A stretch of 64,000 bases of DNA from Astropecten irregularis. Its lineage: Eukaryota > Echinodermata > Asteroidea > Paxillosida > Astropectinidae. Positions 3,388 through 31,213 of this stretch are shown here, in pieces. A program made the position numbers and the translations under genes. Every line of letters starts with the position of its first letter. Position 1 is the stretch's first letter. Location of the stretch: assembly GCA_963971285.1 (NCBI GenBank), contig OZ020244.1, positions 8,184,001 to 8,248,000 on the forward strand. The letters are read 5' to 3'. The notes under the pieces are model-generated. The model ran no database searches, was not told the DNA's origin, and worked only from the letters and a program-made list of their open reading frames with translations.

Positions 3388-3869
3388 ACTGTTGGAGGAA
3401 AGACACCTCCTGAACTGTAAATGGCTTAATTTCACCTAAGTTGTTGAGTCTGGCCAATGACAATCTATCAAGAATCTTCACACAGTTAGACATGATTCAT
3501 TGTTAAATTTTGCAACCAAATTCTAGTAAATATGAATGTTCGTGTTCTAGAAGGGAGACAGGATGTGCATTTGTAAGAGAGGATCTGTCTAGTGATTTCT
3601 CCAGAATGGAAAGACTTGACAAACTGTAGACTTGATTGGATTAGGGACAATTGTCGCTTTTCAACGCCTTGTTACCGTTGCATTTAAGTTTATGTTTGGC
3701 ATGTTGTAGAGTTAGAGTGTTAACCTTTTTGTATAAGCCTAACTCCACCTTAGGTCTCCACCAGTCGTCGGGGGCGACGACTCAATTGTTTTGGAAGATT
3801 GTGAGGATCAGGTAAACTTAAATGATTATTGGCGAAGTGCGTGACAGCGCCCTCAAGCGGTGACTTGCC

Positions 3870-3927
3870 ATTCCCCGAATGTGCTCGCTCCCATGCCGCT
3901 GGCCTGTGCACCGCTCGCTGATATTAG
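3870..3927 (+). repeat. 58-bp direct repeat, first member (partner 4628-4685)
   Basis: A 58-bp GC-rich segment starting ATTCCCCGAATG and ending GATATTAG occurs here and at 4628-4685, 758 bp apart and apparently identical. It lies in the gypsy 3' region. The first copy runs into GTAAAT, a splice-donor-like string. Both copies recur in the duplicated block at about 14611 and 15369. Confidence 0.85.
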
Positions 3928-4627
3928 GTAAATATCCTCGTTGTTTTTAGAATTATGTTTAATCAATTGTATAATCTCAGTAGTTCGGGGCCTCTTTTAT
4001 TGAATGATGTTATCGGGAAATAGTCGGGTTCGGGATTAAGGGGAATAAAATGGGTTTTTCGTTCAACTTTCTGTCAGTTACAAAATATAATGGAGGCCCT
4101 CTCGTGGTGAACTTGGGAAAGGGAATGTACGTGTATTACATTTTGACCTGGGCACCGTAGTAGAATTAACACAATTTTATAAGTCCCTCTTTTCGGTAAA
4201 ATAATGGTCTTTTGTGTAAAATGAATGCCCATGTTAAGTGTTGATTGTGATTTATTGGAATAATAGGAACAGACAATGGGAATTTCAGATGAATTGGGTT
4301 TAATCTCTTAAATTATTATTGGTTTATAGAGCAATCCTGTGCAACAGTAGATAATTGATTCACAGTCTCTTGTCTTTACTGTAAAGTGTGATTTATGGCT
4401 GTATAATGACAGATTGATTTATTGTTCCTGTCATCACTGCTAGTTTGGAAATTCTGAGCAAATGTAATTCTTAAGAATATAAGTTGGGAATTGTACTGTT
4501 AAACCTCGACTGCTTCTTATGGTAATTATGACTGGGATATTAGAACAATAGGGCCTCATTCACACGTAAATTCGTTTATGCTAATTGTATTTCTTTATTT
4601 TCTTCTTTTGTCTTTGTTAATTGTGGG

Positions 4628-4685
4628 ATTCCCCGAATGTGCTCGCTCCCATGCCGCTGGCCTGTGCACCGCTCGCTGATATTAG
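4628..4685 (+). repeat. 58-bp direct repeat, second member
   Basis: Same 58 bp as 3870-3927. The intervening 700 bp is AT-rich and shows no coding signal. Confidence 0.85.
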
Positions 4686-5687
4686 AATTAAAAACCAATT
4701 TGGTGGAGAGAATCCTCTGGTGTGCCGTGTGGGTTACCTTTGTGTTGAGTCACGCCCCACCCGGCCCCGCCCTTACATACAAAACATATGATGCTCGAAT
4801 GACTCAACTCTCCCCATACATGTACACTACGTATTTCACTGCACTGTGTGTATGGCATTCATAATAATGTCCGCGGATTGCGTGACTCGATCAAAACTTC
4901 GTTTATAATCTTCCCATAGACATTTTCATGTAAGACGTTTTATATATCGTTAAATACCAGCACCAAATATCAAAATGCTATCGATGTAGGTTGCCGTATT
5001 GTACGTCATTTTATGGGTCGCGTTAATATTAGCTATACATGTACAACTTAATTACTTGGGAAGAGTTGTATGGAAAAGTGCAATGATCCATAATTCTATT
5101 CAGTAGGCCTATTTATAGGCAAAATACAGTCAGCGTCGGCCCGACCTCGGCTGGACGACAATAGTTAGTGCACGCGGTGGTATTTACACGGCCGTTTCAT
5201 AGTGGCAACCACCATGCACCGGCAGACCACGGTCGGTGGATGGGCGCCGCTGCTGAGCCGCCGGCGGCCCGATGGCGTGGCTTGCGCACTGCACCTTGGG
5301 CCGGGACGTGATGTCCGACTGACCGTTTACTCAAAACTATATTTTTCCTCATAGACAAAGCACGTACGTCTTTTTTTAAATCATTTTCAAACAATTGTAA
5401 TAACACATAGAAGGAACGGCCGATCTCCTCAAAAATAGTGGGTTTGGGAAATAGAGGTTGGCGATTAATAATGAAGTCATGACAACTTCATCACTTAATC
5501 TTTTATAAATTTGTTCAATCTTTCCCACGCTACCCGATTGAAAATAATGATCATAGTAAAACATACGATGTGATGCTCGAGATACTCAATTTCTCAAAAC
5601 GTGTGTAAACATTGTTTACAGTATGTAAAACTTACATGTTCATTGTCGTATGTCTGTTGAGTGTTGCCTTTTCAGAATTATTCACAA

Positions 5688-5998
5688 AATGTTTGCGAGT
5701 TGACGTATTGTTTGCGAGTTGACGTAATGTTTGCGAGTTTACATAATGTTTGCGAGTTGACGCAATGTGTGCGAGTTGATGCAATGTTTGCGAGTTGATG
5801 TAATGTTTGCGAGTTGACGTAATGTTTGCGAGTTGACGTAATGTTTGCAAGTTAACACAATGTTTGCGAGTTGACGTAATGTTTGCGAGTTGACGTAATG
5901 TTTGCAAGTTGACGCAATGTTTCCGAGTTGACTGTTGTTTGCGAGTTGACGCAATGTTTGCGCGTTGACGAAATGTTTGTGAGTTGACGTAATGTTTT
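5688..5998 (+). repeat. 19-bp minisatellite (GTTTGCGAGTTGACGTAAT), about 16 units
   Basis: Tandem imperfect 19-mers with consensus GTTTGCGAGTTGACGTAAT and substitutions such as GACGCAAT and TTACATAAT. The second copy is at about 16429-16739. On the minus strand all frames are open (19 is not a multiple of 3), which creates spurious proteins rich in RQLANITST-type repeats. Confidence 0.92.
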
Positions 5999-6515
5999 CG
6001 AAAAAAGGATTTTGAGGGCATGATCGATGAAACAATTTTCGAGGGACCAAAACGATTTCCACATGAATACACAAAACATAAGTTCAACAATAACACATAA
6101 AGATTTTGATGACAGATAATGATGTTCATGTATGACGTACAAGAAAAGCCAACTTGCAGGCCGCGAGGTCTCGCATAAAAAATGCTACACGTACGGGGTG
6201 CGTGGACCGCACTGGTTATCACGGGCCCATGCCTCTGGCTGAATGCGTCGCAAGCCCCCACACGTGCTGTGTCTCCAGAGGTGGTAGGGCACCGGCATTT
6301 ACTGGTCTTTTACAAAATTACAAATTTGGCATGTAAATGTTACTTTATCGCGTTGGAAATTCTTAATTTTAAAAAGTAAATACTCAGGTCGAACTGCTAG
6401 CTTTGGCTAGCTTTGGTAAAAAGAAAAACTAGCGATTAAACAAAAAGTTATGTACTCCATTTTGTATAGTAAAAAAAGCTTTTGAACGAAGGGAAGTAAA
6501 ACTAACGCCTGATCG

Positions 6516-6551
6516 CGTGGGGTTTCTGAGTAAAGACTCAGAAAACCCACG
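6516..6551. repeat. 16-bp stem hairpin
   Basis: Arms CGTGGGGTTTCTGAGT and ACTCAGAAAACCCACG flank a 4-nt AAAG loop, with a single G-T wobble. It lies in the Helitron-like body and is duplicated near 17257. No gene is adjacent. Confidence 0.8.
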
Positions 6552-8307
6552 TGACTTACGGTTTTCCGTGTTTATCATGAAAACGGCTAAATTATACCGT
6601 TTATTTGTGTAAATGTTCTATTCTACTTTTGGAAGACCTTTCCAGTCATGAAAAAGGCATGCATTGGCGCCAAAAAGCGCCCACTAACTAGGCCGGCGTG
6701 TACCTTTAGCTTATAAATACATCTTACTAGATTGGAAGAGTTGTGTACGTATAAAAAAAACTGCAAGGATCCACAGACTTCGTACACGTATTTTGTTTAT
6801 GAACAGAGTTTTGTACGATTTGGTTATTTATAAAACATATGATGCCTTATTGAATCAATTCCCATATACACAACATGTATACGTCTTTTCCCTGTGTAAA
6901 ACATAGGATGAAATGTGATGTCCGATTGATTCAAAACTTCGTACATGCATACACTAACCGAAATGCTATCCATGTAGGCTGTGGGAATATTATATTGCAT
7001 GCAAACAATTGCAATGATCCACAGACTTAATCGTACATTTAAACAGCCGATTTTAACTTGGTCTGAAGTATGTCCTTATAGGGTAATTGTTGTCTCCTGA
7101 AACGTTTTGTCATCATGACGTTATCAGGTGTCAAATAACAAGCGATTTGAATTTAATAATCAAATTCTTCAAAAATCAATCAAGGGTTTGAGATAGTAAC
7201 TTGATTCTTTCAGCAAAAGTGAATGTTAGGCACGGTCTTTCTTTGTGACACATTAATTGACCTCTGTATGTGAGCTAGGATCATGATTTGTCCATATGAG
7301 GGATCCATTTCTAGTTATTTGTATAACATTTTATAATATTAATTTATAATAATTATCGTATGCGGAAAAGCCTTATGTGCTGTTTTCAACAGCCATAAAC
7401 TCAGTTGGCTTTTTCGCGCAAGCGAAAAGCCTTTATTTTTGTTCTGTTTTTTTTTTCTTCCTTCCTCTTCTTCCTCTTCCTCTTCCTGTCGCTTGAGTTA
7501 CAATAGACTTTTTCTGGGTGGCACTTTTGTCACTTTTAAACAGCCGATTTTAACCAAACTTGGTCTGAAGGTAGTTAACTTTGTACACAGATTACGTGAA
7601 TATGGTCGTGTACAAAACATAATTATGATGCTCGAATGACTCAACTCTCCCCATACATGTACACTGCACTGTTCGTACGCAATTCACTGCACTGTGTGTA
7701 GGGCATTCATAATAATGTCCGCGGATTGCGTGACTCGATCAAAACTTCGTCTATAATCTTCCCATAGACATTTTCATGTAAGACTTTTGATGTTTCGTTA
7801 AATACCAGCACCAAATGTCGAAATGCTATCGATGTAGGTTGCGGAGTATTGTACGTCATTTTATGGGTCGCGTTAATATTAGCTATACATGTACAACTTA
7901 ATACTTTGGAAGAGTTGTATGGAAAAGTACAATGATCCATAATTTTTTTTTTTGTACGTGGCAATAATGATCGGATCAATTTTACACATGAACAAATTAA
8001 ATTATGTCACGCCATTTCCCCTAGACTTTAGTGTCATCAGAGTGTTTTCATGTTCTTGATATAATTTTGTATAAATATTCTATTCCGTAGGCCTATTTAT
8101 AGGCAAAATACAGTCAGCGTCGGTACCAATGGGCCCGACCTCGGCTGCACGACCATTGTTAGTACACGCGGTGGTATTTACACGGCCGTTTCATAGTGGC
8201 AACCACCATGCACCGGCGGACCACGGTCGGTGGATGGGCGCCGCTGCTGAGCCGCCGGCGGCCCGATATGGCGTGGCTTGAGCACTGATGGGCCATGGGC
8301 CGGGACG

Positions 8308-9061
8308 CATATTTTTTATTTACACCGCAGCCTAGGGTATTTCGCTGTGGCAGTGTAGATTCATGCTTGAGAAGAGACTACAGCTGTTGCGATGCGCCAC
8401 ACAGTATTCCCCCATCACTGCAATGTAGCCAGTTAGTTACAATGCAAGAATTGAAACTTGACAAATACGTACGTCTAAACACTGTGATGCTCTCCAGCTC
8501 TGAATAAAATCGAGGATGAAAATATCAAGTATCAATCGTCAGCCTAGTTTTTAAATGAGTTATGAGTATGAGGTGTTGATCTGAGAATGACAATTAACGA
8601 TAACAGAAAAGATTTAAACTACGCCTCAAAAGAGTGCCGACAAAAAAGTACGAGTCAGAGCATAGAGCTAGGACTCAGAGCATGGATGTAGAATTAGGTC
8701 AGAGAAGTTACACGTTGGCACTTTGACTCGCCTAACATTCGTACTGTTATTTGTTGGGCCAAGCATAGATAAGTTGACCACACTCTGAGTACATTTTATA
8801 CATCACATTTACATGAACTGTACACGTGTGTTTTGTCGTGATTTGTACATTTCATTATAATTCCGTCTCCCACAACGTACAAAATTAGCAATACAGTGCA
8901 ATATGCACATTGCTTGTACAGTATGTCATGTACAGTACTAGTACACTGCAGCTACGGTATGGTAAGCGTGAGTAGCACACCACTTGTAGTCTCTTTTTCA
9001 AGCATGTATTTGCACTGTCACAGCGAAAAACCCTAGGCTGCGGTGTAAATAAAAAATACGC
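8308..9061. mobile_element. TIR element with 10-bp target duplication (Mutator-like MITE)
   Basis: Imperfect terminal inverted repeats of about 75 bp (TATTTTTTATTTACACCGCA at each end) bound a 754-bp non-coding body. The flanking direct repeat GGCCGGGACG occurs at 8298-8307 and 9062-9071. The uninterrupted site with one copy is seen near 48073. Long TIRs and a 9-10-bp duplication fit the Mutator superfamily, but there is no transposase to prove it. The second copy is 19050-19803. Confidence 0.75.
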
Positions 9062-9960
9062 GGCCGGGACGTGATGTCAGATTGACCGTTGACTCAAAAC
9101 TATATTTTCCCTCGTAGACAATGCACGTACGTCTTTTTTTATATCATTTTCAAACAAAATCTTACTAAACCAGAATTCCATCGATGTACATGTAAGTTGG
9201 TACGTAATGCATGTCAAAGTGTGTACGGTCCACGGCATGCTTCTGTCAAGTTCATGCCGTACAACAACCCGATTGACATGAAAATAATGGTCATAGTAAA
9301 ATGGTACGATGTGACTCAATTCCCCAAAATATGTGTAAAACATTGTATACAGTATGTAAAACTTACATATTTATTATTAAGTCTTTTTTTATATTATTTA
9401 CAAACCATAAAATCTTAACCGAAATGCTATCGACGTAGGTTGCGGAGTATTGTATGTCATTTCATTGGTGTTCTTAAGCTTATAAATACATCTTAATAGA
9501 TGAGTTGTGTAAGAGAAAACTGCAATGATCCATGGATTCGTACATGTGTTTTTGTTTGTGAACAGAGTTTTGTATGATATGGTGATGGTCATTTATAAAA
9601 CATACGATTTATTATTGAATCAATTCTCATATACACAACATATACGTCTTTTCCCTGTGTAAAACATATGATGACATGTAATGTCCGATTGATTCAAAAT
9701 ACAAAACTTCGTACATGCACACATGTTGCCAAACACGTAAATCTTTCATTTAAAAACGTGTAACGATCGATGTATGGCTGTGGGAACTTAGTTGTATGAA
9801 AAAAAATGCAATGATCCACAGACTTCGTACATGTGTCTTTGTTTGTGAACAGAGTTTTGTACTTGAAAATATGGTCATCTATGAAATATACGATGTGTAG
9901 TTGAATTAATTCAGAAATGCAAAAATTGTGCGTCACGTGACAGGGCCTTAAAGGGGCAAA

Positions 9961-10024
9961 CTTTATTATGCCAATTAAGTTTGAACAAACCCCAGAAGAA
10001 GCTCCTCATTTAAAAGAGGTAAGA
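9961..10024 (+). repeat. 64-bp direct repeat flanking a minisatellite block (partner 10411-10474)
   Basis: CTTTATTATGCCAATTAAGT and the following 44 bp recur at 10411-10474. The related element at 49032 has one copy with nothing inserted. The bracketed 386 bp is made of AATGATTTTGTATTCGC-type units, so the block appears to have been added together with a duplication of its flank. Also present at 29272 and 29722. Confidence 0.85.
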
Positions 10025-10410
10025 ATTTGCAAATGATTTTGTATTCGCAAAAAGATATCGCCTTCACGCAATCATTTGTCGTACACAATATGCGATTACG
10101 CAAAATAATTTTGTATTCGCAAAAGATTTTGTATTCGCACCTGATATCGCCTTCAAGAAAGTCGAAGAAGATCATCATTGACGAATATAAAATCATTTTG
10201 CATATTCGCATATGATATCGTCTTCGACAAATGTATACGAGAATGATTATGTACTGGCAAAAAATGATTTTGTATTCACAAATGATTTTGTATTCGCCAA
10301 TGATTTTCTGTTTGCAAATGAATTTGTATTCGCAAATGATTTTGTATTGGCTAATGATGTTGTATACGCTAATGATTTTGTATTCGCAAAACGATTTCGT
10401 GTCATTTGCA
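10025..10410. repeat. AATGATTTTGTATTCGC minisatellite block in both orientations
   Basis: Units of about 17 bp related to AATGATTTTGTATTCGC, many direct and some inverted (for example ATAAAATCATTTTGCATATTC near 10187), so the block can fold back. The same family occurs at 11262-11639, 29336-29721, 30572-30950, 45330-45412, 46735-46900 and 62445-62885. Apparent proteins with repeated FANDF/FANTKS strings are translations of it. Confidence 0.85.
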
Positions 10411-10576
10411 CTTTATTATGCCAATTAAGTTTGAACAAACCCCAGAAGAAGCTCCTAATTTAAAAGAGGTAAGAACGAGAATCAAAAACCTGAAGTAGCA
10501 TCTTATTAATAAAGCATGTAATTATATCATATGCAGAAAAGCCTTATGTGCGGTTTCCAACAGCCATAAACTCTAG

Positions 10577-11639
10577 TATTGTATTTGAGTTTGTTCTGTG
10601 GCCCATAGACTTTGTACACAGATTTTTCTCCGCGGCACTTTGGTTACTTTAAAACAGCTGATCTTAACCAAACTTGGTCTGAATGAAGTCCATATAGGGT
10701 AGTTGTCTCGCGAAACTTTTCATCATCATGACGTCAAAACTTGATTTTATATGATTTTTAAAAAAATATTTTATAGCCCGTTCACTTTGTACACAGATTA
10801 CGTGAACATGGTTGTTGCACAAAACATGAAGCTCGATCAATTTCCCATACACATATACAGTGTACATGTAGGCCTACGCGTACGCAATTCACTGTGTATA
10901 ACATACAATGCACATGTCCCATTGCGTGACACAAAACGTCGTTTACAACTTGCCATAGTTTGCACGTAAGTCCTTTTACATATCATTAAATACCAGCATT
11001 TAATTTTAATCGAAATACTATCAATGGGTCGTGTTAAGTATCAAACTATAATACTTGGGAAGAGTTTAATGGAAAAACTGAAATGATCCATCGAGTTTGT
11101 CTTTTTGTACGTGGTAATATGGTCAGCGCAGTTTTACACATGAAACAAGTAAATGTCACTTCCTTTGCCCTGGACTTTGTAGCTGTCTTTTTCTATACGT
11201 GGCAATCAGTTTAAGACTGAATTTCATGGAAGCAAATATGTTTCATGCAATCATGTTCTCCTAATGATTTGTATTCGCAAATAATTTCGTATTCACAAAA
11301 GATATCGTCTTCACGCAATCATTTGCATGTCGTAGACGATATGCGATTACGCAAAATGATTTTGTATTCGTAAATGATTTTGTATTCGCATATTCGTATT
11401 CGCAAATGATTTTGTATTTGCATCATGATATCGCCTTCAAGAAAGTCTAAGAAGCTCATCATTAACGATTACAAAATCATTTTGCGTATTAGCAAATGAT
11501 ATCGTCTTCGACAAATGAATACGCAAAATGATTACGTACTCGCATTTAATGATTTTGTATTCGCAAATGATTTTGTATTCGCTAATGATTTTCTATTTGC
11601 TAATGAATTTGTATTCGCAAATGATTTTGTATTGGCTAA
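10577..11639 (+). mobile_element. Helitron-like element, 5' portion, cut by the Polinton left end
   Basis: Begins after CTAG with TATTGTATTTGAGTTTGTTC; the same head follows CTAG at 29887 and 61755. It contains the TTTGTACACAGATTACGTGAAC body and ends in the 17-bp minisatellite, where the Polinton inserted after TTGGCTAA. In copy 1 the remainder is absent because the duplication junction intervenes. In copy 2 it resumes at 45330. Confidence 0.6.
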
Positions 11640-11902
11640 AGTAGTGTGATAATACCAATACTATTGCAAAATGAAAAATTGTGACATTTAGAACTATTAT
11701 TTTGCAATATTATTAGTATTATCAGTAGTGTGATTATACACCCCCATTTTTCCGCGTTATTTCTCAATATTCTTGGAAAATTGTAAAATGGGGAATTCCT
11801 CATTTATCCCCCGGTCATTGAACATTTTTGAAATGAAATCGGAAAAAAATGAAATAATAAAATAATATTATTTTTTATTATAATGAGAGAGAGAGAGAAA
11901 AC

Positions 11903-12286
11903 ATGATGAAAGAAAACCTAAAACCAACATATTTTGTAACTCAAAATTTTGAAAAATATAACGCCATCAACAAAAATGAGAATCATTATTACGGATTGTT
12001 TGAAAAGAAAAATTTAATCATCCATCCAGCCGTTAAAAATTCAATAAACGGAGTTGAAAATGCATCATCAACCATCACTTATAAACACGATAATAACGAA
12101 TGTAATTTAGTATTTATAATGCCACCCAGCTTTTGCCTCGGCATTTACGTCAATTATAAATTTCTCGAAACAAAAATTTGAGATAATGCAACGGGATATA
12201 AAATTTGTTACAGTTGGAACCAAAGAGAGATGACAAAAGATTTTGATGATATAAGAACGCAAGTGATCAAATTTATTAAAAATTAA
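11903..12286 (+). pseudogene. Polinton small gene with in-frame TGA
   Basis: ATG at 11903 gives 92 codons to a TGA at 12179-12181. The same frame then continues for 34 more codons (DNATGYKICYSWNQ...) to TAA at 12284-12286, so this looks like one 127-codon gene broken by a nonsense change. I do not recognise the family. It sits just inside the left TIR and codes inward. Duplicate at 31214-31597 has the same stop, so the mutation predates duplication. Confidence 0.6.
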
Positions 12287-12304
12287 AAAGAAACTTTACC
12301 AAAA

Positions 12305-12497
12305 ATGGCTACTAGCTTATTTACAAACATGGGTAAAGAATGTGAAAACCAATTTATCTCGAACTAAACACCACAGTAAAACAGATTATTGCGCTAGTAT
12401 TAGGTTTGAAGTAGAACAAGCCATTATCGCTTTAAAAGATAATCACCCTATTGATATCGATACGGATTTATCATTTGATATTGAAGACATTAACTAA
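12305..12497 (+). pseudogene. Small frameshifted Polinton gene
   Basis: ATG at 12305 opens MATSLFTNMG and soon stops near 12367. The +1 frame from about 12330 (WVKNVKTNLSRTKHHSKTDY and on) runs to TAA at 12495-12497 with an acidic end (DIDTDLSFDIEDIN). A single indel would explain the two pieces. The protein has about 60 residues and no known domain. Duplicate at 31616-31808. Confidence 0.5.
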
Positions 12498-12543
12498 AAT
12501 AAATTTTAAAATGTTATAAAACTTAAATATTAATAAACCAACA

Positions 12544-12575
12544 AAAACACCTTGTCTAATTAGACAAGGTGTTTT
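12544..12575. terminator. Perfect 32-bp palindrome between convergent Polinton genes
   Basis: The arms AAAACACCTTGTCTAA and TTAGACAAGGTGTTTT are exact complements with no loop. It lies in the 106-bp gap between a plus-strand gene ending at 12497 and a minus-strand gene ending at 12603, where transcripts from both sides would end. A bidirectional terminator or end-processing hairpin is an inference. The exact copy is at 31855-31886. Confidence 0.6.
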
Positions 12576-12602
12576 AATAACGTTATTTTTTTTTTAAACT
12601 AA

Positions 12603-13210
12603 CTATTTTAAATGTTTTTGTAAATAAACTAAAATTAACCCCCCAATACCGATTAACATAGCCCAAACGTGACCGGCTAAAAATCCCACCCCTTTACTCA
12701 AAAGATTAAACAACCAACTGGCGATACTCCCTAAAATACCCGGTAAAGCAACTAATAATTTACCTCCAATTTTTTTAAGTAAACTCGCTAAATTTTTTAA
12801 ATGCTCTTCCATCCATTCTTTTACACCACCCGATTTTGGTGGTGGCTTTGGATCGGGTGTTGGTGGTTTTTGGAGTAACCGCTGTGGCACCCCACCCACA
12901 GCCGCATATACTAATAAGGGTACTTATAGCCAAACTAAAAGCGGCTAAAATACTAACAACCGTCACACCCTGTTCTCTAAACAACGCTCTAATTTTTTCA
13001 ATTAAAGTTCTATCGGAATTTAAAATACTTCTTGCGAAAGAATAGGTAGACTCACACCTAACGCTTTAGAATATAATCTAAATACGCAAGAACCCATACT
13101 TTTTATCATTTCTTTACTCAGTTTAGCTTCATAATTTCTATACAACTTTTCTAGTTTTTCTTTATCAAGTTTTTCAATCTCATCAACTGAATATTCTTAA
13201 CATAAATCAA
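12603..13210 (-). pseudogene. Polinton hydrophobic membrane-type protein, frameshifted
   Basis: Read on the minus strand in pieces. The N-part (SVDEIEKLDKEKLEKLYRN near 13130-13190) leads to FREQGVTVVSILAAFSLAIS (about 12925-12984), then after a frame change a Pro-rich linker (PPTPDPKPPPK) and a C-part with KIGGKLLVALPGILGSIASW and GFLAGHVWAMLIGIGGLILV. At least two frame changes are needed. I recall proteins of this design near Polinton genes in invertebrates, but the role is unknown; a membrane-active protein is plausible. Copy 1 also has a TAA at 13197-13199 that reads AAA in copy 2. Duplicate at 31914-32521. Confidence 0.55.
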
Positions 13211-13218
13211 AAATAAGT

Positions 13219-13452
13219 TTGACTCAAGTTACCGATAAAGAACCATTAGACAATCCGATTCGTACGTTATATTGGATCGATCCTGGTCGTTATTCTATCG
13301 ATTATTTCAAAGATTTACTCAGAGATATAGAATGGTTAGAGATAGAACTAGATTATTACCCCATGCGACAAGACGGAAAGAAATATCAGACATTGACAAA
13401 TTTTATTTCTTTGTTTAGTACGGCCAGAGCATTTTATTACCAGATATATTGA
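13219..13452 (+). CDS. Hypothetical Polinton small protein, possibly partial
   Basis: A 77-codon frame with plausible protein composition (NPIRTLYWIDPGRYSIDYF, then DYYPMRQDGKKYQTLTNFIS). The first visible codon is TTG, so the real start is unclear and may lie in a broken upstream part. No family recognised. It ends 19 bp before the hairpin array. Duplicate at 32530-32763 with Val-to-Phe at codon 4. Confidence 0.45.
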   Translation: MTQVTDKEPLDNPIRTLYWIDPGRYSIDYFKDLLRDIEWLEIELDYYPMRQDGKKYQTLTNFISLFSTARAFYYQIY

Positions 13453-13471
13453 TTACCATAGGTAATTGCAT

Positions 13472-13808
13472 GTGTCTCCGATCGCTGCGAGTCGCGAAAC
13501 ACGGATTTTCCGGTCGCTGCGACCCGGGAAAATCACAACTCAATATATAACTCAACATCATAATCCAATTTGGCTTCCGGTCGCTGCGATCCGCGAAGCC
13601 CCATAACATTCCACAAGTGTAGGCCTACACATCAATTTTCCATTTGTTTCCGGTCGCTGCGATCCGCGAAACAACACAGTGCCAATAATTATTCCATGCC
13701 TTCCGGTCGCTGCGATCCGCGAAGGCCCAATTAATACATGTTTCAAATCCAAAAATGTGCAACTGTAACACCTTTAAGTTGGTCTCCGGTCGCTGCGATC
13801 CGCGAGAC
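13472..13808. repeat. Array of six hairpins with constant core and covarying arms (copy 1)
   Basis: Six hairpins at 13472-13502, 13504-13534, 13572-13600, 13644-13674, 13698-13726 and 13782-13808. The core is CGGTCGCTGCGATCCGCG, itself a stem (CGG/CCG and TCG/CGA) with a CTG loop and one bulge. The outer arms differ from unit to unit but are self-complementary each time: GATTTTCC/GGAAAATC, GGCTTC/GAAGCC, TTGTTTC/GAAACAA, GCCTTC/GAAGGC, GTCTC/GAGAC. Unit 1 is GTGTCTC/GAAACAC with one mismatch and a diverged core; unit 2 has a core variant. The spacers (1-55 bp) share no sequence. It lies between the Polinton gene and the Ngaro-like SGNH gene end. Confidence 0.9.
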
Positions 13809-14245
13809 AATCTTATATAATATACAAAGGCTGAGTCCCGGCGTAACTTGTGCCGTGGAATCATGTGCATGTATATGCATACCCATGCATGCATAACTAA
13901 AACAGTTTAAGCGTATATATAATATTGTTTAATGATTTCATTTAACCAGACAACTGGCATTAATGTCCATCTTCACTTAAGGCTTGACCAAGAGCAAGAT
14001 CAGTAAGGGAAAATTTGCACCAAAATATACTTTAAGTAAACATTTCGAGATGTTAAAATGCGGTAAATAAAAAGCCTTAATAGGGCTATGATGGCGTTCA
14101 GAATGTAATTCCGCCGAAACGGTCATTTATGACCGCCGCCAAATAGCCTATGAGGCCTTAAGGACGGTATACCCGTTCTCGGGAAACTAGGAATAAATGT
14201 ACGTAGAAACAGCAAGTGAAAGAGCCTGTCGAAAATTTTCAATTA
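13809..14245 (-). mobile_element. 3' flank of the Ngaro-like element, copy 1
   Basis: Non-coding apart from the last codons of the SGNH gene at the right edge (14187-14245). It contains GGTCATTTATGACC (14122-14135), a perfect short palindrome, and AT-rich sequence. Matches 33120-33556. I could not identify the split direct repeats expected for Ngaro. Confidence 0.5.
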
Positions 14246-14251
14246 AAATTT

Positions 14252-15518
14252 TGCAACCAAATTCTAGTTAATATGAATGTTCGTGTTCTAGAAGGGAGAC
14301 AGGATGTGCATTTGTAAGAGAGGATCTGTCTAGTGATTTCTCCAGAATGGAAAGACTTGACAAACTGTAGACTTGATTGGATTAGGGACAATTGTCGCTT
14401 TTCAACGCCTTGTTACCGTTGCATTTAAGTTTATGTTTGGCATGTTGTAGAGTTAGAGTGTTAACCTTTTTGTATAAGCCTAACTCCACCTTAGGTCTCC
14501 ACCAGTCGTCGGGGGCGACGACTCAATTGTTTTGGAAGATTGTGAGGATCAGGTAAACTTAAATGATTATTGGCGAAGTGCGTGACAGCGCCCTCAAGCG
14601 GTGACTTGCCATTCCCCGAATGTGCTCGCTCCCATGCCGCTGGCCTGTGCACCGCTCGCTGATATTAGGTAAATATCCTCGTTGTTTTTAGAATTATGTT
14701 TAATCAATTGTATAATCTAGGTAGTTCGGGGCCTCTTTTATTGAATGATGTTATCGGGAAATAGTCGGGTTCGGGATTAAGGGGAATAAAATGGGTTTTT
14801 CGTTCAACTTTCTGTCAGTTACAAAATATAATGGAGGCCCTCTCGTGGTGAACTTGGGAAAGGGAATGTACGTGTATTACATTTTGACCTGGGCACCGTA
14901 GTAGAATTAACACAATTTTATAAGTCCCTCTTTTCGGTAAAATAATGGTCTTTTGTGTAAAATGAATGCCCATGTTAAGTGTTGATTGTGATTTATTGGA
15001 ATAATAGGAACAGACAATGGGAATTTCAGATGAATTGGGTTTAATCTCTTAAATTATTATTGGTTTATAGAGCAATCCTGTGCAACAGTAGATAATTGAT
15101 TCACAGTCTCTTGTCTTTACTGTAAAGTGTGATTTATGGCTGTATAATGACAGATTGATTTATTGTTCCTGTCATCACTGCTAGTTTGGAAATTCTGAGC
15201 AAATGTAATTCTTAAGAATATAAGTTGGGAATTGTACTGTTAAACCTCGACTGCTTCTTATGGTAATTATGACTGGGATATTAGAACAATAGGGCCTCAT
15301 TCACACGTAAATTCGTTTATGCTAATTGTATTTCTTTATTTTCTTCTTTTGTCTTTGTTAATTGTGGGATTCCCCGAATGTGCTCGCTCCCATGCCGCTG
15401 GCCTGTGCACCGCTCGCTGATATTAGAATTAAAAACCAATTTGGTGGAGAGAATCCTCTGGTGTGCCGTGTGGGTTACCTTTGTGTTGAGTCACGCCCCA
15501 CCCGGCCCCGCCCTTACA
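14252..15518 (+). mobile_element. Duplicated gypsy 3' region/LTR
   Basis: Copy of 3511-4777 with a few substitutions; no open frame of interest. It is separated from any gypsy coding sequence, having been carried by the segmental duplication and not by its own insertion. Confidence 0.75.
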
Positions 15519-18146
15519 TACAAAACATATGATGCTCGAATGACTCAACTCTCCCCATACATGTACACTACGTATTTCACTGCACTGTGTGTATGGCATT
15601 CATAATAATGTCCGCGGATTGCGTGACTCGATCAAAACTTCGTTTATAATCTTCCTTTAGACATTTTCATGTAAGACGTTTTATATATCGTTAAATACCA
15701 GCACCAAATATCAAAATGCTATCGATGTAGGTTGCCGTATTGTACGTCATTTTATGGGTCGCGTTAATATTAGCTATACATGTACAACTTAATTACTTGG
15801 GAAGAGTTGTATGGAAAAGTGCAATGATCCATAATTCTATTCAGTAGGCCTATTTATAGGCAAAATACAGTCAGCGTCGGCCCGACCTCGGCTGGACGAC
15901 AATAGTTAGTGCACGCGGTGGTATTTACACGGCCGTTTCATAGTGGCAACCACCATGCACCGGCAGACCACGGTCGGTGGATGGGCGCCGCTGCTGAGCC
16001 GCCGGCGGCCCGATGGCGTGGCTTGCGCACTGCACCTTGGGCCGGGACGTGATGTCCGACTGACCGTTTACTCAAAACTATATTTTTCCTCATAGATAAA
16101 GCACGTACGTCTTTTTTTAAATCATTTTCAAACAATTGTAATAACACATAGAAGGAACGGCCGATCTCCTCAAAAATAGTGGGTTTGGGAAATAGAGGTT
16201 GGCGATTAATAATGAAGTCATGACAACTTCATCACTTAATCTTTTATAAATTTGTTCAATCTTTCCCACGCTACCCGATTTAAAATAATGATCATAGTAA
16301 AACATACGATGTGATGCTCGAGTGACTCAATTTCTCAAAACGTGTGTAAACATTGTTTACAGTATGTAAAACTTACATGTTCATTGTCGTATGTCTGTTG
16401 AGTGTTGCCTTTTCAGAATTATTCACAAAATGTTTGCGAGTTGACGTATTGTTTGCGAGTTGACGTAATGTTTGCGAGTTTACATAATGTTTGCGAGTTG
16501 ACGCAATGTGTGCGAGTTGATGCAATGTTTGCGAGTTGATGTAATGTTTGCGAGTTGACGTAATGTTTGCGAGTTGACGTAATGTTTGCAAGTTAACACA
16601 ATGTTTGCGAGTTGACGTAATGTTTGCGAGTTGACGTAATGTTTGCAAGTTGACGCAATGTTTCCGAGTTGACTGTTGTTTGCGAGTTGACGCAATGTTT
16701 GCGCGTTGACGAAATGTTTGTGAGTTGACGTAATGTTTTCGAAAAAAGGATTTTGAGGGCATGATCGATGAAACAATTTTCGAGGGACCAAAACGATTTC
16801 CACATGAATACACAAAACATAAGTTCAACAATAACACATAAAGATTTTGATGACAGATAATGATGTTCATGTATGACGTACAAGAAAAGCCAACTTGCAG
16901 GCCGCGAGGTCTCGCATAAAAAATGCTACACGTACGGGGTGCGTGGACCGCACTGGTTATCACGGGCCCATGCCTCTGGCTGAATGCGTCGCAAGCCCCC
17001 ACACGTGCTGTGTCTCCAGAGGTGGTAGGGCACCGGCATTTACTGGTCTTTTACAAAATTACAAATTTGGCATGTAAATGTTACTTTATCGCGTTGGAAA
17101 TTCTTAATTTTAAAAAGTAAATACTCAGGTCGAACTGCTAGCTTTGGCTAGCTTTGGTAAAAAGAAAAACTAGCGATTAAACAAAAAGTTATGTACTCCA
17201 TTTTGTATAGTAAAAAAAGCTTTTGAACGAAGGGAAGTAAAACTAACGCCTGATCGCGTGGGGTTTCTGAGTAAAGACTCAGAAAACCCACGTGACTTAC
17301 GGTTTTCCGTGTTTATCATGAAAACGGCTAAATTATACCGTTTATTTGTGTAAATGTTCTATTCTACTTTTGGAAGACCTTTCCAGTCATGAAAAAGGCA
17401 TGCATTGGCGCCAAAAAGCGCCCACTAACTAGGCCGGCGTGTACCTTTAGCTTATAAATACATCTTACTAGATTGGAAGAGTTGTGTACGTATGAAAAAA
17501 ACTGCAAGGATCCACAGACTTCGTACACGTATTTTGTTTATGAACAGAGTTGTGTACGATTTGGTTATTTATAAAACATATGATGCCTTATTGAATCAAT
17601 TCCCATATACACAACATGTATACGTCTTTTCCCTGTGTAAAACATAGGATGAAATGTGATGTCCGATTGATTCAAAACTTCGTACATGCATACACTAACC
17701 GAAATGCTATCCATGTAGGCTGTGGGAATATTATATTGCATGCAAACAATTGCAATGATCCACAGACTTAATCGTACATTTAAACAGCCGATTTTAACTT
17801 GGTCTGAAGTATGTCCTTATAGGGTAATTGTTGTCTCCTGAAACGTTTTGTCATCATGACGTTATCAGGTGTCAAATAACAAGCGATTTGAATTTAATAA
17901 TCAAATTCTTCAAAAATCAATCAAGGGTTTGAGATAGTAACTTGATTCTTTCAGCAAAAGTGAATGTTAGGCACGGTCTTTCTTTGTGACACATTAATTG
18001 ACCTCTGTATGTGAGCTAGGATCATGATTTGTCCATATGAGGGATCCATTTCTAGTTATTTGTATAACATTTTATAATATTAATTTATAATAATTATCGT
18101 ATGCGGAAAAGCCTTATGTGCTGTTTTCAACAGCCATAAACTCTAG
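15519..18146 (+). mobile_element. Helitron-like element, duplicate of 4778-7404
   Basis: Same content as 4778-7404, including the 19-bp minisatellite (16429-16739). The 3' end is better preserved here: GCTGTTTTCAACAGC hairpin at about 18120-18134 and CTAG at 18143-18146, followed by T and the next element's head. Confidence 0.6.
16429..16739 (+). repeat. 19-bp minisatellite, copy 2
   Basis: Unit-for-unit match to 5688-5998. Confidence 0.9.
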
Positions 18147-19049
18147 TTGGCTTTTTCGCGCAAGCAAAAAGCCTTTATTTTTGTTCTGTTTTTTTTTTCT
18201 TCCTTCCTCTTCTTCCTCTTCCTCTTCCTGTCGCTTGAGTTACAATAGACTTTTTCTGGGTGGCACTTTTGTCACTTTTAAACAGCCGATTTTAACCAAA
18301 CTTGGTCTGAAGGTAGTTAACTTTGTACACAGATTACGTGAATATGGTCGTGTACAAAACATAATTATGATGCTCGAATGACTCAACTCTCCCCATACAT
18401 GTACACTGCACTGTTCGTACGCAATTCACTGCACTGTGTGTAGGGCATTCATAATAATGTCCGCGGATTGCGTGACTCGATCAAAACTTCGTCTATAATC
18501 TTCCCATAGACATTTTCATGTAAGACTTTTGATGTTTCGTTAAATACCAGCACCAAATGTCGAAATGCTATCGATGTAGGTTGCGGAGTATTGTACGTCA
18601 TTTTATGGGTCGCGTTAATATTAGCTATACATGTACAACTTAATACTTTGGAAGAGTTGTATGGAAAAGTACAATGATCCATAATTTTTTTTTTTGTACG
18701 TGGCAATAATGATCGGATCAATTTTACACATGAACAAATTAAATTATGTCACGCCATTTCCCCTAGACTTTAGTGTCATCAGAGTGTTTTCATGTTCTTG
18801 ATATAATTTTGTATAAATATTCTATTCCGTAGGCCTATTTATAGGCAAAATACAGTCAGCGTCGGTACCAATGGGCCCGACCTCGGCTGCACGACCATTG
18901 TTAGTACACGCGGTGGTATTTACACGGCCGTTTCATAGTGGCAACCACCATGCACCGGCGGACCACGGTCGGTGGATGGGCGCCGCTGCTGAGCCGCCGG
19001 CGGCCCGATATGGCGTGGCTTGAGCACTGATGGGCCATGGGCCGGGACG

Positions 19050-19803
19050 CATATTTTTTATTTACACCGCAGCCTAGGGTATTTCGCTGTGGCAGTGTAG
19101 ATTCATGCTTGAGAAGAGACTACAGCTGTTGCGATGCGCCACACAGTATTCCCCCATCACTGCAATGTAGCCAGTTAGTTACAATGCAAGAATTGAAACT
19201 TGACAAATACGTACGTCTAAACACTGTGATGCTCTCCAGCTCTGAATAAAATCGAGGATGAAAATATCAAGTATCAATCGTCAGCCTAGTTTTTAAATGA
19301 GTTATGAGTATGAGGTGTTGATCTGAGAATGACAATTAACGATAACAGAAAAGATTTAAACTACGCCTCAAAAGAGTGCCGACAAAAAAGTACGAGTCAG
19401 AGCATAGAGCTAGGACTCAGAGCATGGATGTAGAATTAGGTCAGAGAAGTTACACGTTGGCACTTTGACTCGCCTAACATTCGTACTGTTATTTGTTGGG
19501 CCAAGCATAGATAAGTTGACCACACTCTGAGTACATTTTATACATCACATTTACATGAACTGTACACGTGTGTTTTGTCGTGATTTGTACATTTCATTAT
19601 AATTCCGTCTCCCACAACGTACAAAATTAGCAATACAGTGCAATATGCACATTGCTTGTACAGTATGTCATGTACAGTACTAGTACACTGCAGCTACGGT
19701 ATGGTAAGCGGTAGTAGCACACCACTTGTAGTCTCTTTTTCAAGCATGTATTTGCACTGTCACAGCGAAAAACCCTAGGCTGCGGTGTAAATAAAAAATA
19801 CGC
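19050..19803. mobile_element. Mutator-like MITE, copy 2
   Basis: Copy of 8308-9061. Its right target duplication GGCCGGGACG was itself split by Ginger1 (GGCCGG before, CCGGGACG after). Confidence 0.75.
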
Positions 19804-19877
19804 GGCCGGTGTCATGCCAAAAGGTGTCCGTTGCCAAATAGTGTCCGCGGAGCATGCGCAGTGGAGCGCAGTGAAGC

Positions 19878-19921
19878 GCGGACACTATTTGGCATGTATA
19901 TACATGCCAAATAGTGTCCGC
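19878..19921. repeat. 44-bp perfect palindrome of TIR-related sequence
   Basis: GCGGACACTATTTGGCATGT and the next two bases are followed by their exact complement, with no spacer. Each half is related to the inner part of the 39-bp TIR, so it looks like two TIR pieces placed head to head 30 bp inside the left end. Likely a transposase-binding or regulatory site. Confidence 0.9.
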
Positions 19922-20039
19922 TGCCAAAAAGTGTCCGAGCACAGCCCATATTATGCGTGCGCGCGTAATGGTGCTTTGCCTTCGTGACTACAGTAGGCCA
20001 CATACGTACAGGTGCAAGGTAGGATTCTCCTTTCTGATC

Positions 20040-20722
20040 AGTGTTCTATTATCTATTTTTGAATTTAAGTATATATATGAGGTAAAGGTTTAATGAGCAA
20101 TACGTATATTGCAGGAAGTATTTCTAAATCTTTTCGATGAACAGTTTTTGACGATCGCTATGTCTCGTCAGGAATGTGATGAAATTAGAGGCTTTGGGCA
20201 AAAGGTTGGGAAGTTATTACCGTAGTCTACTTATTAAAAATGCATATCAAAATACATGTAGTATTAACTTTTTAGTTTATATGATAAGTAATTATTTCGA
20301 CTTTTTTTCCCCTACATTAAAAGAGACACAGATTGTATTCAAAGTCGTATATTAGTTTTTATGTGTAAAAATATGCTTGGCATGCCTGACGCGTTGCGAT
20401 CCTGGCATGATCTTCATCGAAGGTTTTTCTTGAGCCTTAGATAAAGCTTTCTGGTAGGATGGAAACGTCATGCCCTCCTAACTATTTTTTAAATATATAT
20501 TTCAGGCCATTATTTACGTTGATGAGCAGCTTGCCTCACGGTTTAAAGCTTGTATTAAAATCATAATAAATACAAGAAATAAACTCCTGTAGTTTACATC
20601 AGCCAAGTGACAATATTGATAAAAAAAAAAAAAACAGAGTACAGTGTACCTGTATTTGGAAAGAATGGGACTTTTGACACGACTTAATTGTAATCTCCAT
20701 ATCAAGTTTTATTGTTTGATTT
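20040..20722. other. Ginger1 left non-coding arm
   Basis: AT-rich sequence lying 3' of the transposase gene. No coding signal, no RNA gene and no clear repeat beyond a poly-A run near 20621-20634. Confidence 0.5.
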
Positions 20723-21960
20723 GATTCCACTCCATCTTGACACTAACGGCAACTCACTATAAATTTAACCTTACAATAAATAACACAAAAATTAATAAAA
20801 TATCAAGCAACCAAAAATAAAAAAACAACGGGCAAGTTGGTTTCTGTAAGAATATGTGTAATGCGATGAGAAATAAAAATAGCACATAAAATAAATACTG
20901 GAAGACATTTTACATGAAATAAAAAGGCGGATTATTCAAGTATGATCATGCCCTTGCATAAATAAATTATATGTACATGTACATGTATAACCTTAGCAAA
21001 ACTAAAATATGTACAGTATATATGATTCCACTCCATCTTGACTCTAACGGCAAGTCACTATAAATTTAAACTTACAATGAATAACACAAAAATAAATAAA
21101 ATATCAAGCATATGTGTAATGCGATGAGAAATAAAAATAGCACATAAAATAAATACTGGAAGACATTTTACATGAAATAAAAAGGCGGATTATTCAAGCA
21201 TGCATGTGATCATGCCCTTGCATAAATAAATCATATGTAGATGCATAACCTTAGCAAAACTAAAATATGTATATATGATTCCACTCCCGTCTTGACACTA
21301 ACGGCAAGTCACTATAAATTTAACCTTACAATAAATAACAACAAAATTAATAAAATATCAAGCAACCAAAAATAAAAAACAACGGGCAAGTTGGTTTCTG
21401 TAAGAATATGCGATGAGAAATAAAAATAGCACATAAAATTATTCAAGTGTGATCATGCCCTTGCATACATGCATAACCTTAGCAAAACCAAAATATGTGG
21501 ATATGTGGATTGGTTTGCGGGAAACACCATGTAAGAACCGTTCGTACTTTCGCACTTCTCGTCAGGTCTCAACGTTGCGACTAGCCTGCTTTAGTCATCA
21601 TCGAGATTTTAGGCTGCGAAAGTACGAACGATTCTTATATGGTGTGTCCGCAAACCTTCCACATGACAATGGTCACCATGCACAGCCTCAATCCACTCCA
21701 TCTTGACGCTAACGGCAAGACAAGTTGTGTAAATTTAACCTTACAATAAATAACACAAAAATAAATAAAATAACAAACAACCAAAAACAAACAAACAATG
21801 GGCAAGTTGGTTTCTGTAAGAATGTGAGAATGCGTAATGCGATGAGAAATAAAAATAGCACATAAAATAATAAATAATGTGAAGCATGCATGTGATCCTA
21901 CCCTCAACGGCATTTACATGCACCGATACGAAAAAGGCAAATTATTCCAGCACGTGCTCA
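20723..21960. repeat. Four tandem units of about 250-300 bp in the Ginger1 3' region
   Basis: Units begin ATTCCACTCC...TTGAC at about 20723, 21024, 21277 and 21691 and share ATAAATTTAACCTTACAATAA and ATAGCACATAAAAT strings. They differ by indels, and the third unit carries a foldback insertion (21513-21655). Non-coding. Confidence 0.8.
21513..21655. mobile_element. 143-bp foldback/MITE inside Ginger1
   Basis: The ends GTTTGCGGGAAACACCATGT and its near-complement (ATATGGTGTGTCCGCAAAC) extend as arms of about 42 bp around a 60-bp centre. It interrupts one of the tandem units. No convincing target duplication was seen. Confidence 0.7.
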
Positions 21961-22137
21961 TACCCTTGCATAAATAAAATATAATAGAATTTGTATATTA
22001 CGGAGAAAACACCAATATGTGGGCAAGACAAAAAAAAACGACAATACGCATGCTACCATATACAACAAATAAAAAGACGATCTAGAGCTAGAAAAACACT
22101 AAGAAAGAACATGCAAACAGCGAAACGGGGAAAATGG

Positions 22138-25100
22138 CTAAGCACACTTTAAGCAACAGAATACAACAGACTTATCCGAAAAACAAAGAGATGGTAGTGG
22201 GTGGCAGGTTTCATGGTACCATTCATTGCATTTCTGGCACTGCACCATGTCATCCCGTCCTTCCGGCTGTCTGCAGAAGCAAAACACCTCCACCACTGTA
22301 GTTCGCTTTATGCCTCCACTTGCAGCTCGCTTGACCTGTAAATAAGGAAAAAATTCAACTTTTTTTGCCTGCAAGCAGGCTACAAAGTGCGGTCGCATGC
22401 CTCGCTGGTCCCAGCGGATGCACGCGGGATCCCTACCTGTGCACAAAGCATGAGCATTTGCAATTGCAAACAGGCCACAGTCTGCAACACCAACTTGCTG
22501 CTGCACTTTAACATGTTCAACTTCAATGAACTTTTCCTCAGTGTAGAGCAAAGCAGCAATAGTTGCCTTAAAGGCATCAGGCAAGGATACTCCTAAGCTG
22601 TCATACACCCTGACCTTGTTGGGTGCATCTACTCCAACATTAGACAGAGTGACCCAGTGGGAATTATGAATATTTACAATTTGGACAAATGGACCAACAT
22701 TGGTTACAACATAACCCCCTGCACTACCTGCATGCAGAGTCACAGCACTCTGAAACCCCTGGATGTCTGGGAATTGGGTAGACAGGCACGATTGAGCAAA
22801 GTCAATGTGCCCATCATTCAGCCACGAGCCATTGATGACGTCCTCCGAGTTGACATATTCTGGGGCCTTCTTCACGCACTTCGCTGGCTTTGGAATCCAG
22901 TCATCAGGTGCCGGTCTTTTCTCTAAATGACAAACAAATCAACAAATGAAAACGTATCGTAAATTTCAACCTTCTTCAGGAGACAATTCCATGATTATCA
23001 ATTAACTCCCCTATGTCATATGAAAATTGTCATCTTACCAATCTTGACAATTTCCACTTCAGCGTCGGCATCATCAACGGCATCTGTAAGATAATGTCAG
23101 ACGAACAAATTAAGGCCACATTTTCTTGGTGAATAAAAGACAGTGTTTGTGCTCCCATTGTCTTAACTGGCCACACCAATTTGACTTACCATTAGCATTG
23201 TGTGATGCAACGTCGCCATCATCAACGGCATCTCGGCAAGACTGCTGAATGGAATTACCTGTAAGATAATGTCAGACGAAAATATTAAGCCCACATTTTC
23301 TTGGTGAATGAAAGACAGTGTTTGTGCTCCCATTGTCTTAACTGGCCACACCAATTTGACTTACCATTAGCATTGGGTGATGCAACGTCGCCATCATCAA
23401 CGGCATCTCGGCAAGACTGCTGAATGGAATTACCTGTAAGATAATGTCAGACGAAAATATTAAGCCCACATTTTCTTGGTGAATGAAAGACAGTGTTTGT
23501 GCTCCCATTGTCTTAACTGGCCACACCAATTTGACTTACCATTAGCATTGGGTGATGCAACGTCGCCATCATCAACGGCATCTCGGCAAGACTGCTGAAT
23601 GGAATTACCTGTAAGATAATGTCAGACGAAAATATTAAGCCCACATTTTCTTGGTGAATGAAAGACAGTGTTTGTGCTCCCATTGTCTTAACTGGCCACA
23701 CCAATTTGACTTACCATTAGCATTGGGTGATGCAACGTCGCCATCATCAACGGCATCTCGGCAAGACTGCTGAATGGAATTACCTGTAAGATAATGTCAG
23801 ACGAAAATATTAAGCCCACATTTTCTTGGTGAATGAAAGACAGTGTTTGTGCTCCCATTGTCTTAACTGGCCACACCAATTTGACTTACCATCACTGCTG
23901 GAGATGCTGGAGTCAGTTTTGAAAGGTTTCACGTGCTCATACTGGACTTTCTTTTTCAGCTCCAGTTGCCCATCTGCAGTGCTGAGAGTGACGACATTGT
24001 TGTCACTGATGTGTGATATCCTGTAATGAGAGAAGAATGTGACATTGCTCGAAAATTTTAATTAGAGGCCAGTGACATTTCGGTCCTATATCCGCGAAAA
24101 AAAATTAACACCTGGACAATGCTCACGAAAATAATGGATGACCAAAACTTCCGCAATGTCTTCATACATTTCAGAATTATCAACTAACCTGTATGGTCCG
24201 AGCCAGTTTGGTTCCAGCTTACTCCCCTTGCGTCCGATCTTCCTGTAGTTCCTCTTTAGAACGAGCATGCCTTCTTCCAGCTGGAACACCTTCACATTTC
24301 TCCCCTTTCTCTTTGCATACGTTTTCTTGTCTTTGTCTTGAGCGGCCTTGATGTTTTCATTTACCTGTAGTGTGGGGATTCTAAATTTGTCAATGGTTCT
24401 GAGCTTATAATTTCTGACATTGGAATATAGATCAGCTAATAATCAGTACTTACCCGACACTTCACAGCTTCTACCTGCTCTGTCGCTATTCTGGCGAATT
24501 CTTCCAGCGTCTGGAAATCAGGAGTTTCCGGGTGTTCCTCCAGTGTTTTGTCTTCCTTCAGCTGAAATCAAAATTGAATATGAATGAACACAATTTTAGA
24601 AAGGACACATGAAACTTTAACATGTCTTCCCTGAACTATCAGGTCGCAGTAACCAGTTCAGCAAGCCCTTCCCCTTGGTTGTAGATAACATGACATCAAG
24701 TGATAGTAACTAACCTCGCAAGGTAATCTGGCTTCCCTGTTGTACAGCAAGAAAAACGGCGTGAACCTCGTCGAAGTTTGGACCGACGTCCTGTAGGCGA
24801 ACAGCACTGGGTCTGCATACAAAGAAATTGAGACAATGAGATCAGCACATAATAACACAGAATCAATCATGTTTAATTACTGTGGACATTTTTGACTGAT
24901 ATAGCCCGTGTTACCTAATATCAAAATTACCTAAATATTCCTCCCAGTCATCCTGATTCTCATTCACCAACTTGGCAATTGCTGTCTTCAGTGTCTGGTT
25001 CCACCGCTCGTCAAGGCCGTTGGTCTGAGGGTGGTATGCGGAGGACACACGGTGGCGAATGCCCCATCGCCTGTACAATTCCTCGGACAACTGCCAGGGA

Positions 25101-30950: not shown

Positions 30951-31213
30951 AGTAGTGTGATAATACCAATACTATTGCAAAATTAAAAATTGTGACATTT
31001 AGAACTATTATTTTGCAATATTATTAGTATTATCAGTAGTGTGATTATACACCCCCATTTTTCCGCGTTATTTCTCAATATTCTTGGAAAATTGTAAAAT
31101 GGGGAATTCCTCATTTATCCCCCGGTCATTGAACATTTTTGAAATGAAATCGGAAAAAAATGAAATAATAAAATAATATTATTTTTTATTATAATGAGAG
31201 AGAGAGAGAAAAC

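Follow-up and report, generated by a model that had tools for sequence, protein, structure and literature searches.

Ngaro elements are known with their split repeats, with a hydrolase, and inserted into Polinton-like elements (PMC8547959, PMC4157794 and PMC9210276, in the parts consulted). In amphibian Ngaro, the consulted part of PMC9210276 places an SGNH hydrolase after the recombinase, as in the element described here. In Cafeteria, Ngaro is inserted into Polinton-like DNA (virophages; PMC8547959, consulted part), which is probably also the situation in our locus. Likewise, the gene order and the A and B repeats are common to known Ngaro elements and to the family studied here. The word "hairpin" is absent from the main text of PMC8547959 and PMC4157794, and the consulted part of PMC9210276 contains neither "stem" nor "secondary structure". 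In the literature searched, which included part of PMC2632668 and had most subscription papers and Repbase outside it, we found no account of hairpin arrays in Ngaro. Within this scope, the arrays in Ngaro B repeats are undescribed so far, which is not proof of novelty.

Hairpin clusters are known from other systems. The transferrin-receptor 3' UTR holds clustered iron-responsive elements, with a fixed recognition part, a bulge, free stems and irregular spacers. The iron-responsive element has a CAGUGN apical loop with a C bulge. Our array resembles this cluster in having several hairpins in a 3' region. Nevertheless, its sequence is different, the transferrin receptor is a host gene and the two are unrelated; the comparison concerns only the way of working. 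An iron-responsive element cluster was rejected, because the array has other apical loops and no Rfam match. Smaug recognition elements, stem-loops on a non-specific stem (PMC4053848, in the part consulted), are also similar to the arrays. However, the motif in our locus has no CNGG loop, and its conserved part is in the stem, around the bulge. Smaug recognition elements were rejected as well, with 0 CNGGN0-4 tip loops in the B repeat of this family. In sponge mitochondria, repetitive elements bring many small hairpins into animal non-coding DNA (PMC2800124, in part). There the stems are conserved and the loops vary, according to the same part of that source; in our array, it is the basal stem that changes, with compensation, and the hairpins belong to a retroelement. 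A mobile hairpin of the mitochondrial type was rejected. The array region has no Rfam match at E values up to 5, and three arrays from elsewhere in the genome (L305, L307 and L282) have none at E values up to 1. A known Rfam RNA was rejected, since no covariance model matches the array.

We analysed a window of 64,000 nucleotides from Astropecten irregularis (contig OZ020244.1, positions 8,184,001 to 8,248,000). An array of six hairpins occupies 13472-13810, on the minus strand. Unit 1 (13472-13502) is the last of the array in the RNA sense. It is followed by unit 2 (13504-13534), unit 3 (13571-13601), unit 4 (13644-13674), unit 5 (13697-13727) and unit 6 (13780-13810), which is the first in the RNA sense. 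The start-to-start steps are 32, 67, 73, 53 and 83. The first-pass annotation had reported a core repeated six times, with variants in the first two units, and this proved correct. Units 3-6 share the exact 20-base core; unit 2 has two mismatches in it and unit 1 has three. Its claim that the arms differ and remain complementary in each unit was also confirmed. In the outer arms of the six units, 26 of 30 positions are Watson-Crick pairs, against a mean of 7.8 and a maximum of 20 in 100,000 random 3'-arm draws from the same region. Among the 720 re-assignments of the 3' arms between units, only the true one reaches 26. Both sides have changed in 6 of 13 pairs. Outside the arms, the sequence gives no sign of a shared origin, since 300 of 1000 random sets align equally well; the annotation had noted unrelated spacers. 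A CRISPR array, already discarded by the annotation, was rejected: the spacers are irregular, and the host is a eukaryote with a genome of 475.7 Mb, not a prokaryote.

Each unit folds into a basal stem, a one-base bulge, the CGG/CCG pairs, a second one-base bulge, a small apical stem and a loop of three bases. Unit 2 differs in that its bulges are fused into one of two bases. Folded alone on the plus strand, unit 1 barely beats its own shuffles (z -0.61); on the minus strand it does better (z -2.22). The arm mismatch noted earlier in this unit is a C.A on the plus strand. On the minus strand it is a G.U pair.

These six hairpins lie within a Ngaro retrotransposon (a tyrosine-recombinase element), in its B repeat. 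The window contains one such element at 32662-38242, with the layout A1-ORFs-single B, 97.8% identical to the complete copy L261 over the matched length. All its features are on the minus strand. The A1 repeat (37943-38242) has the 300 bp common to the A2 of complete copies. The gag-like ORF (36660-37820) is assigned by position only, with no confident Pfam match. The ORF at 35081-36607 encodes a reverse transcriptase (RT) and RNase H (Pfam RVT_1, 3.4e-12). The tyrosine recombinase ORF is at 34233-35213 (Pfam Phage_integrase, 2.8e-05; 24.4 bits, just under the curated cut-off of 27.1). In the RNA sense, the GDSL/SGNH hydrolase ORF (33498-34088) precedes the B repeat by about 70 bp. The B repeat (32664-33426, 763 bp) carries an array and is single here, where complete copies have B1 and B2. 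RT/RNase H and a tyrosine recombinase without an rve integrase are the combination by which Ngaro is recognised, and Pfam found no rve domain in the four ORFs of the element. A methyltransferase-like domain, a DIRS/PAT trait, had no match in the general Pfam scan of the ORFs searched. By eye, the recombinase ORF has an in-frame stop within the conserved C-terminal catalytic region. Since it ends early in this part, the window copy is probably non-autonomous. Within this copy alone no split repeats were found, because it has one A1 and a single B, as though B1-A2-B2 had collapsed. An inverted repeat at 33119-33138/37826-37845 scored 26, against a maximum of 24 in 20 shuffles, and was dropped.

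These positions correct one part of the first-pass annotation and support another. The array does not lie between Polinton and Ngaro coding regions, as it had been placed; it lies inside the Ngaro B repeat. The tie to Ngaro, near the 3' (cDNA) end, is right. A Polinton terminal inverted repeat was rejected, because the array is in the Ngaro B repeat and is repeated in direct orientation. The ORF pieces that flank the element (to 32661 and from 38243) have relatives side by side in the locus L271 (8460-8615 and 8610-8946). Therefore, the window Ngaro was inserted inside one gene. We take the interrupted gene and its neighbours to be of Polinton type (penton-like, PolB), with no Pfam match. Genes that we take to be of Polinton type contain or adjoin Ngaro elements of two different families, at 32446-38554 of the window and at 5792-8946 of L271. 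A third locus, L261, has a weak match in its flank (55% over 47 amino acids).

The array is present twice in the window because a segment of 10.7 kb is tandemly duplicated. In self-comparison of the window, the first copy of the segment spans about 3505-14251 and the second 14246-33562, and they are 99.7-99.8% identical. The second is split by an insertion of 8.5 kb (19810-28374). An ORF within this insertion (22138-22938) encodes an Ulp1-type protease domain and then a PHD finger. The second array (32783-33121, minus strand) is identical to the first over 371 compared bases. The copy of the B repeat around the first array (13353-14115, minus strand) has 3 differences. The array at 13472-13810 lies in the duplicated 3' end of the window Ngaro element. 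The two arrays share one duplication history and therefore are not independent.

We searched the genome of the same species (475.7 Mb, 168 contigs). It holds the core in many arrays, frequently as pairs about 1272 bp apart; across families, the spacing of paired arrays is about 1.27-1.36 kb. We fetched 14 loci (L257-L270) to compare their layout. Six of them (L260, L261, L262, L264, L265 and L266) show the full A1-ORFs-B1-A2-B2 order. L258, L259 and L267 have B1-A2-B2 or part of it, in elements truncated or cut by the fetched stretch. As in the window copy, the B is single in L257 and L263, and L268, L269 and L270 are diverged copies. In L261, in the element sense, A1 begins at 1281, B1 is at 6083-6847, and A2 precedes B2 (7356-8120). 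Its hairpins occupy about bases 305-645 of the 765-bp B, with one set in B1 and one in B2. Thus, complete copies have two arrays and twelve hairpins. The B1/A2 junction of L261 is GGGGTAATAA/TCCC, more than 100 bp from the hairpins. Most copies of the family are 97-99% identical, arms included. Identical arms in other copies had been named as a sign against covariation. They are found within the family; the covariation between units and between families still stands. One family has arrays every ~1272-1276 bp, six times at C1:11139400-11145789 and four times at C23:4596405-4600244 of this genome (G000), as though B-A repeats had been tandemly amplified.

A general motif, TTCGCGG-N4-24-CGACCGGAA, was derived from the neighbouring second array in L267. 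It has 111 exact matches in the 475.7 Mb, and the motif written backwards has 0. Grouping the 100 matches listed gave 31 loci. Thirteen of these have a same-strand Ngaro RT match within about 6 kb, where RT matches come from the 85 of 650 first-look candidates that were scored. Six more, L269 included, have paired arrays at ~1.3 kb. The other 12, one of which is the first array of the window, have no neighbouring RT match or paired array. In all, 19 of the 31 loci show one of these two signs of a Ngaro and 12 show neither.

By their apical loops, the loci that we read fall into four families, with 4 to 7 units per array where counted. The window family has the loop ATCGCAG. The second family is found on C28, C9 and C19. 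Its member L271 shows, by eye, hydrolase-, recombinase-, RT- and gag-like ORFs, and its own array is just 3' of the hydrolase-like ORF. Over 2.3 kb of coding DNA, this family shares 67% of its nucleotides with L261, and its RT was confirmed at 67% amino acid identity. The third has TAACGTTGGT and other loops, with a 793-bp repeat at 1353 bp spacing in L305; among the 85 of 650 candidates that were scored, no RT was assigned to it. The fourth has GTAGCCTA and other loops, an RT with 75% amino acid identity and a hydrolase-like ORF in L283. The second and third families align at 72% over their arrays. In the array interval of the window-family B (about bases 305-645), only one piece of ~31 bp aligns with another family. 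The remaining matches are outside this interval, and the motif is kept nonetheless. At least four families in the genome carry such arrays, which have one motif in common: 5'-(N)3-UUC-G-CGG-[variable apical loop]-CGA-CCG-GAA-(N')3-3'. It comprises a basal helix of six base pairs with covarying outer pairs, a one-nucleotide bulge, three near-invariant G-C pairs and the conserved CGA. The core described as fixed is so only inside the window family; between related families, the apical loop varies too.

We then considered the structure of these units across families. Twelve loci gave 89 unit occurrences, of which 61 are distinct (20, 22, 11 and 8 in the four families). These units are related, with two of the four families aligning over their arrays as given above. 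They were picked by the motif only (at most 3 mismatches in 16 bases), ignoring arm pairing. Basal pairs 1-3 overlap this motif, and pairs 4-6 are outside it and independent of the choice of units. Pairs 4-6 are formed in 162 of 183 cells, whereas shuffles of the 3' arms give a mean of 117.8 and a maximum of 135 (10,000 shuffles). Pair 4 is U-A in 52 of 61 units. Pair 5 is not formed in 8 of the 61 units and pair 6 in 11, and the pairing declines past pair 6. With the compensatory changes between families, these values uphold the constrained, covarying structure of the first-pass annotation.

The imperfect pairs are not symmetric between strands. Among the 366 cells of pairs 1-6 there are 317 Watson-Crick, 23 G.U, 3 A.C and 23 other combinations. 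Because A.C in the sense strand is G.U in the antisense, the count is 23 G.U in sense versus 3 in antisense; counting each family, position and kind a single time gives 11 versus 3. The structure therefore looks like that of sense RNA. These strand-specific G.U pairs point to hairpins that act as RNA in the sense of the element.

An alignment was built with 51 units (50 distinct), omitting ten of the 61 with an apical loop longer than 10 nt or more than 2 mismatches. It has 94.4% paired cells. Both sides are changed in 37 cells, against a shuffle mean of 10.1. The covariation score is 0.297 versus 0.142 in shuffles, a value reached by 0 of 500. On the other hand, two counts do not stand out: that of doubly changed pairs (4, matched by 109 of 500 shuffles) and that of further pair types (14, matched by 45 of 500). 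On a 41-unit subset, RNAalifold returned the same nine pairs unaided. In single-sequence folding, 50 of 61 units have z below -1 (60 shuffles each; mean z -1.84). The minimum-energy folds retain five or all six basal pairs in 47 of 61 units, all of the CGG/CCG pairs in 49, and two or more apical pairs in 39. The 51-unit alignment can be used as a model to seek the hairpin module in other genomes.

The diverged copies of the window family do not show clear extra conservation of hairpins over spacers. In L270, the motif changed by 8.7% and the spacers by 7.6%. In L268, the values are 2.2% and 4.9%. L269 has 22.5% and 29.9% in its first array, and 27.8% and 27.4% in the second. Such equal change is as expected for dead copies, yet it gives no support for function. 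L269 and L270 have some broken arms. In L269, an additional hairpin also stands between two units, and the second array contains a fused unit. It means that units come and go.

To our knowledge, how DIRS and Ngaro elements recognise their own RNA and reach circular DNA is little understood. For this self-recognition and for the passage from RNA to circular DNA, the array offers a concrete, testable candidate signal. The hairpins are probably a working part of the RNA of the element. We give an about even chance to repeated protein-binding hairpins on Ngaro RNA, with Gag or RT as the first candidate. Within the 3' region of this RNA, the array would provide a set of equivalent hairpins for a protein to dock on. 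The basal stem and the apical loop may be required only for the shape of the conserved bulged middle, and this middle, with its CGA, would be the part read by the protein. Since the array is part of the element, moves with both of its B repeats and is preserved in sense, the most likely reader would be Gag or RT of the element itself, which would select the template RNA or package it. Several weak sites on one RNA could result in avidity. Viral packaging signals are structured sites of genome RNA bound by capsid or nucleocapsid proteins (PMC11499389, in part); for Ngaro they are a candidate analogy only.

A host RNA-binding protein would be the next choice of reader, for export, stability or translation. 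It might be recruited to control export, decay, translation or localisation, or it might serve host silencing of the element. Hairpin clusters in which the recognition part is fixed and the stems vary freely are a typical form of host regulatory elements, and the CUGG-loop arrays of two other Ngaro families, described below, fit the Smaug consensus. Nevertheless, the window motif has neither an Rfam match nor any CNGG hairpin in its B repeat, and we consider this reading rather unlikely. The place of the array, in terminal repeats, and the tyrosine recombinase of the element would also suit single-stranded DNA: folded sites on Ngaro cDNA, used by the recombinase or the RT in circle formation or integration and comparable in principle to folded integron attC sites. 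Folded recombination sites likewise show bulges, a conserved structure and free stem sequence. However, the sense excess of G.U pairs (23 versus 3, or 11 versus 3 when collapsed) is not predicted for DNA, over 100 bp separate the array from the end of B, which in L261 is the B1/A2 junction given above, and one crossover needs no multiple copies. Such a role of the DNA seems improbable. From the recombinase-binding or cDNA-end structure suggested at first, the nearness to the 3' (cDNA) end remains, and the sense bias disfavours the recombinase site.

It is very unlikely that a tiny mobile hairpin enters B repeats and copies itself with local sequence in the inverted arm. By eye, L269 has one hairpin absent from L261 and L270 at an otherwise alignable place; by eye as well, a deletion of ~36 nt at a two-base repeat also accounts for these states, and the fused unit in its second array indicates loss between units. 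Units 3-6 do have identical cores and unrelated arms. Nevertheless, the U-A at pair 4 (52 of 61) shows that arms are not simply copied target DNA. The 12 of 31 listed loci without a Ngaro tie would suit a mobile hairpin, against the 19 with a Ngaro RT or paired spacing. We find it hardly credible that the array is a neutral, decayed tandem repeat with no function. The near-identical arms among copies of a family and the lack of clear extra conservation over spacers in diverged copies agree with neutrality. In contrast, there is no common origin beyond the arms (300 of 1000 random sets align equally), and between families the arms stay paired with changes on both sides.

We also sampled distant Ngaro families, in four stretches of 1.4 kb taken 3' of RTs with 54-57% identity (L331-L334). 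The bulged hairpin motif was not seen in L332, L333 and L334, nor in L331, which covers only ~300 bases past the hydrolase and is too short to count. Two of the stretches contain, 3' of the RT, hairpin arrays of another class, which has a CUGG loop: one at 696-912 of L332 (G000:C28:9021100-) and one at 495-666 of L333 (C27:1632500-). There are 9 CUGG-loop hairpins in sense in L332 and 3 in L333, with 0 in antisense and shuffle maxima of 3 and 2. The L332 array is a plain 26-bp tandem repeat, and L334 shows no hairpin array. Hairpin arrays could be a general, fast-evolving part of tyrosine-recombinase retroelements, an undescribed RNA module in B repeats that is read by the element or by a host defence factor. 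Lineages would then have swapped hairpin classes (bulged CGCGG/CGACCGG versus CUGG loops). We hold this wider view tentatively and with some doubt.

Beyond this genome, the searches covered phage records, viral contigs and one scan of prokaryote genomes with the narrow core. The array had no match in phage records. The exact core gave 5 single matches in IMG/VR and 9 in prokaryote genomes, by eye without paired arms. Two close loop motifs occur at least 618 times in IMG/VR, in at least 246 loci plus the window; among the matches listed, only the window has two or more good same-strand hairpins. The general motif was found in 21 IMG/VR loci, with one match each and no array, and the model had 7 weak matches in 7 loci. 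No relatives of the Ngaro RT or of the Polinton PolB were confirmed in IMG/VR.

Other repeats are present in the window. At 50806-55417 there is a Gypsy-type element with a SCAN-domain ORF, whose pol ORF has the integrase before the RT. This order is known from Gmr1-like elements. The only Rfam matches of the window are three tRNA-Thr (GGT) at 44030-45074. Inverted and direct repeats surround them, with masked bases adjoining, and they are probably tRNA-derived repeats.
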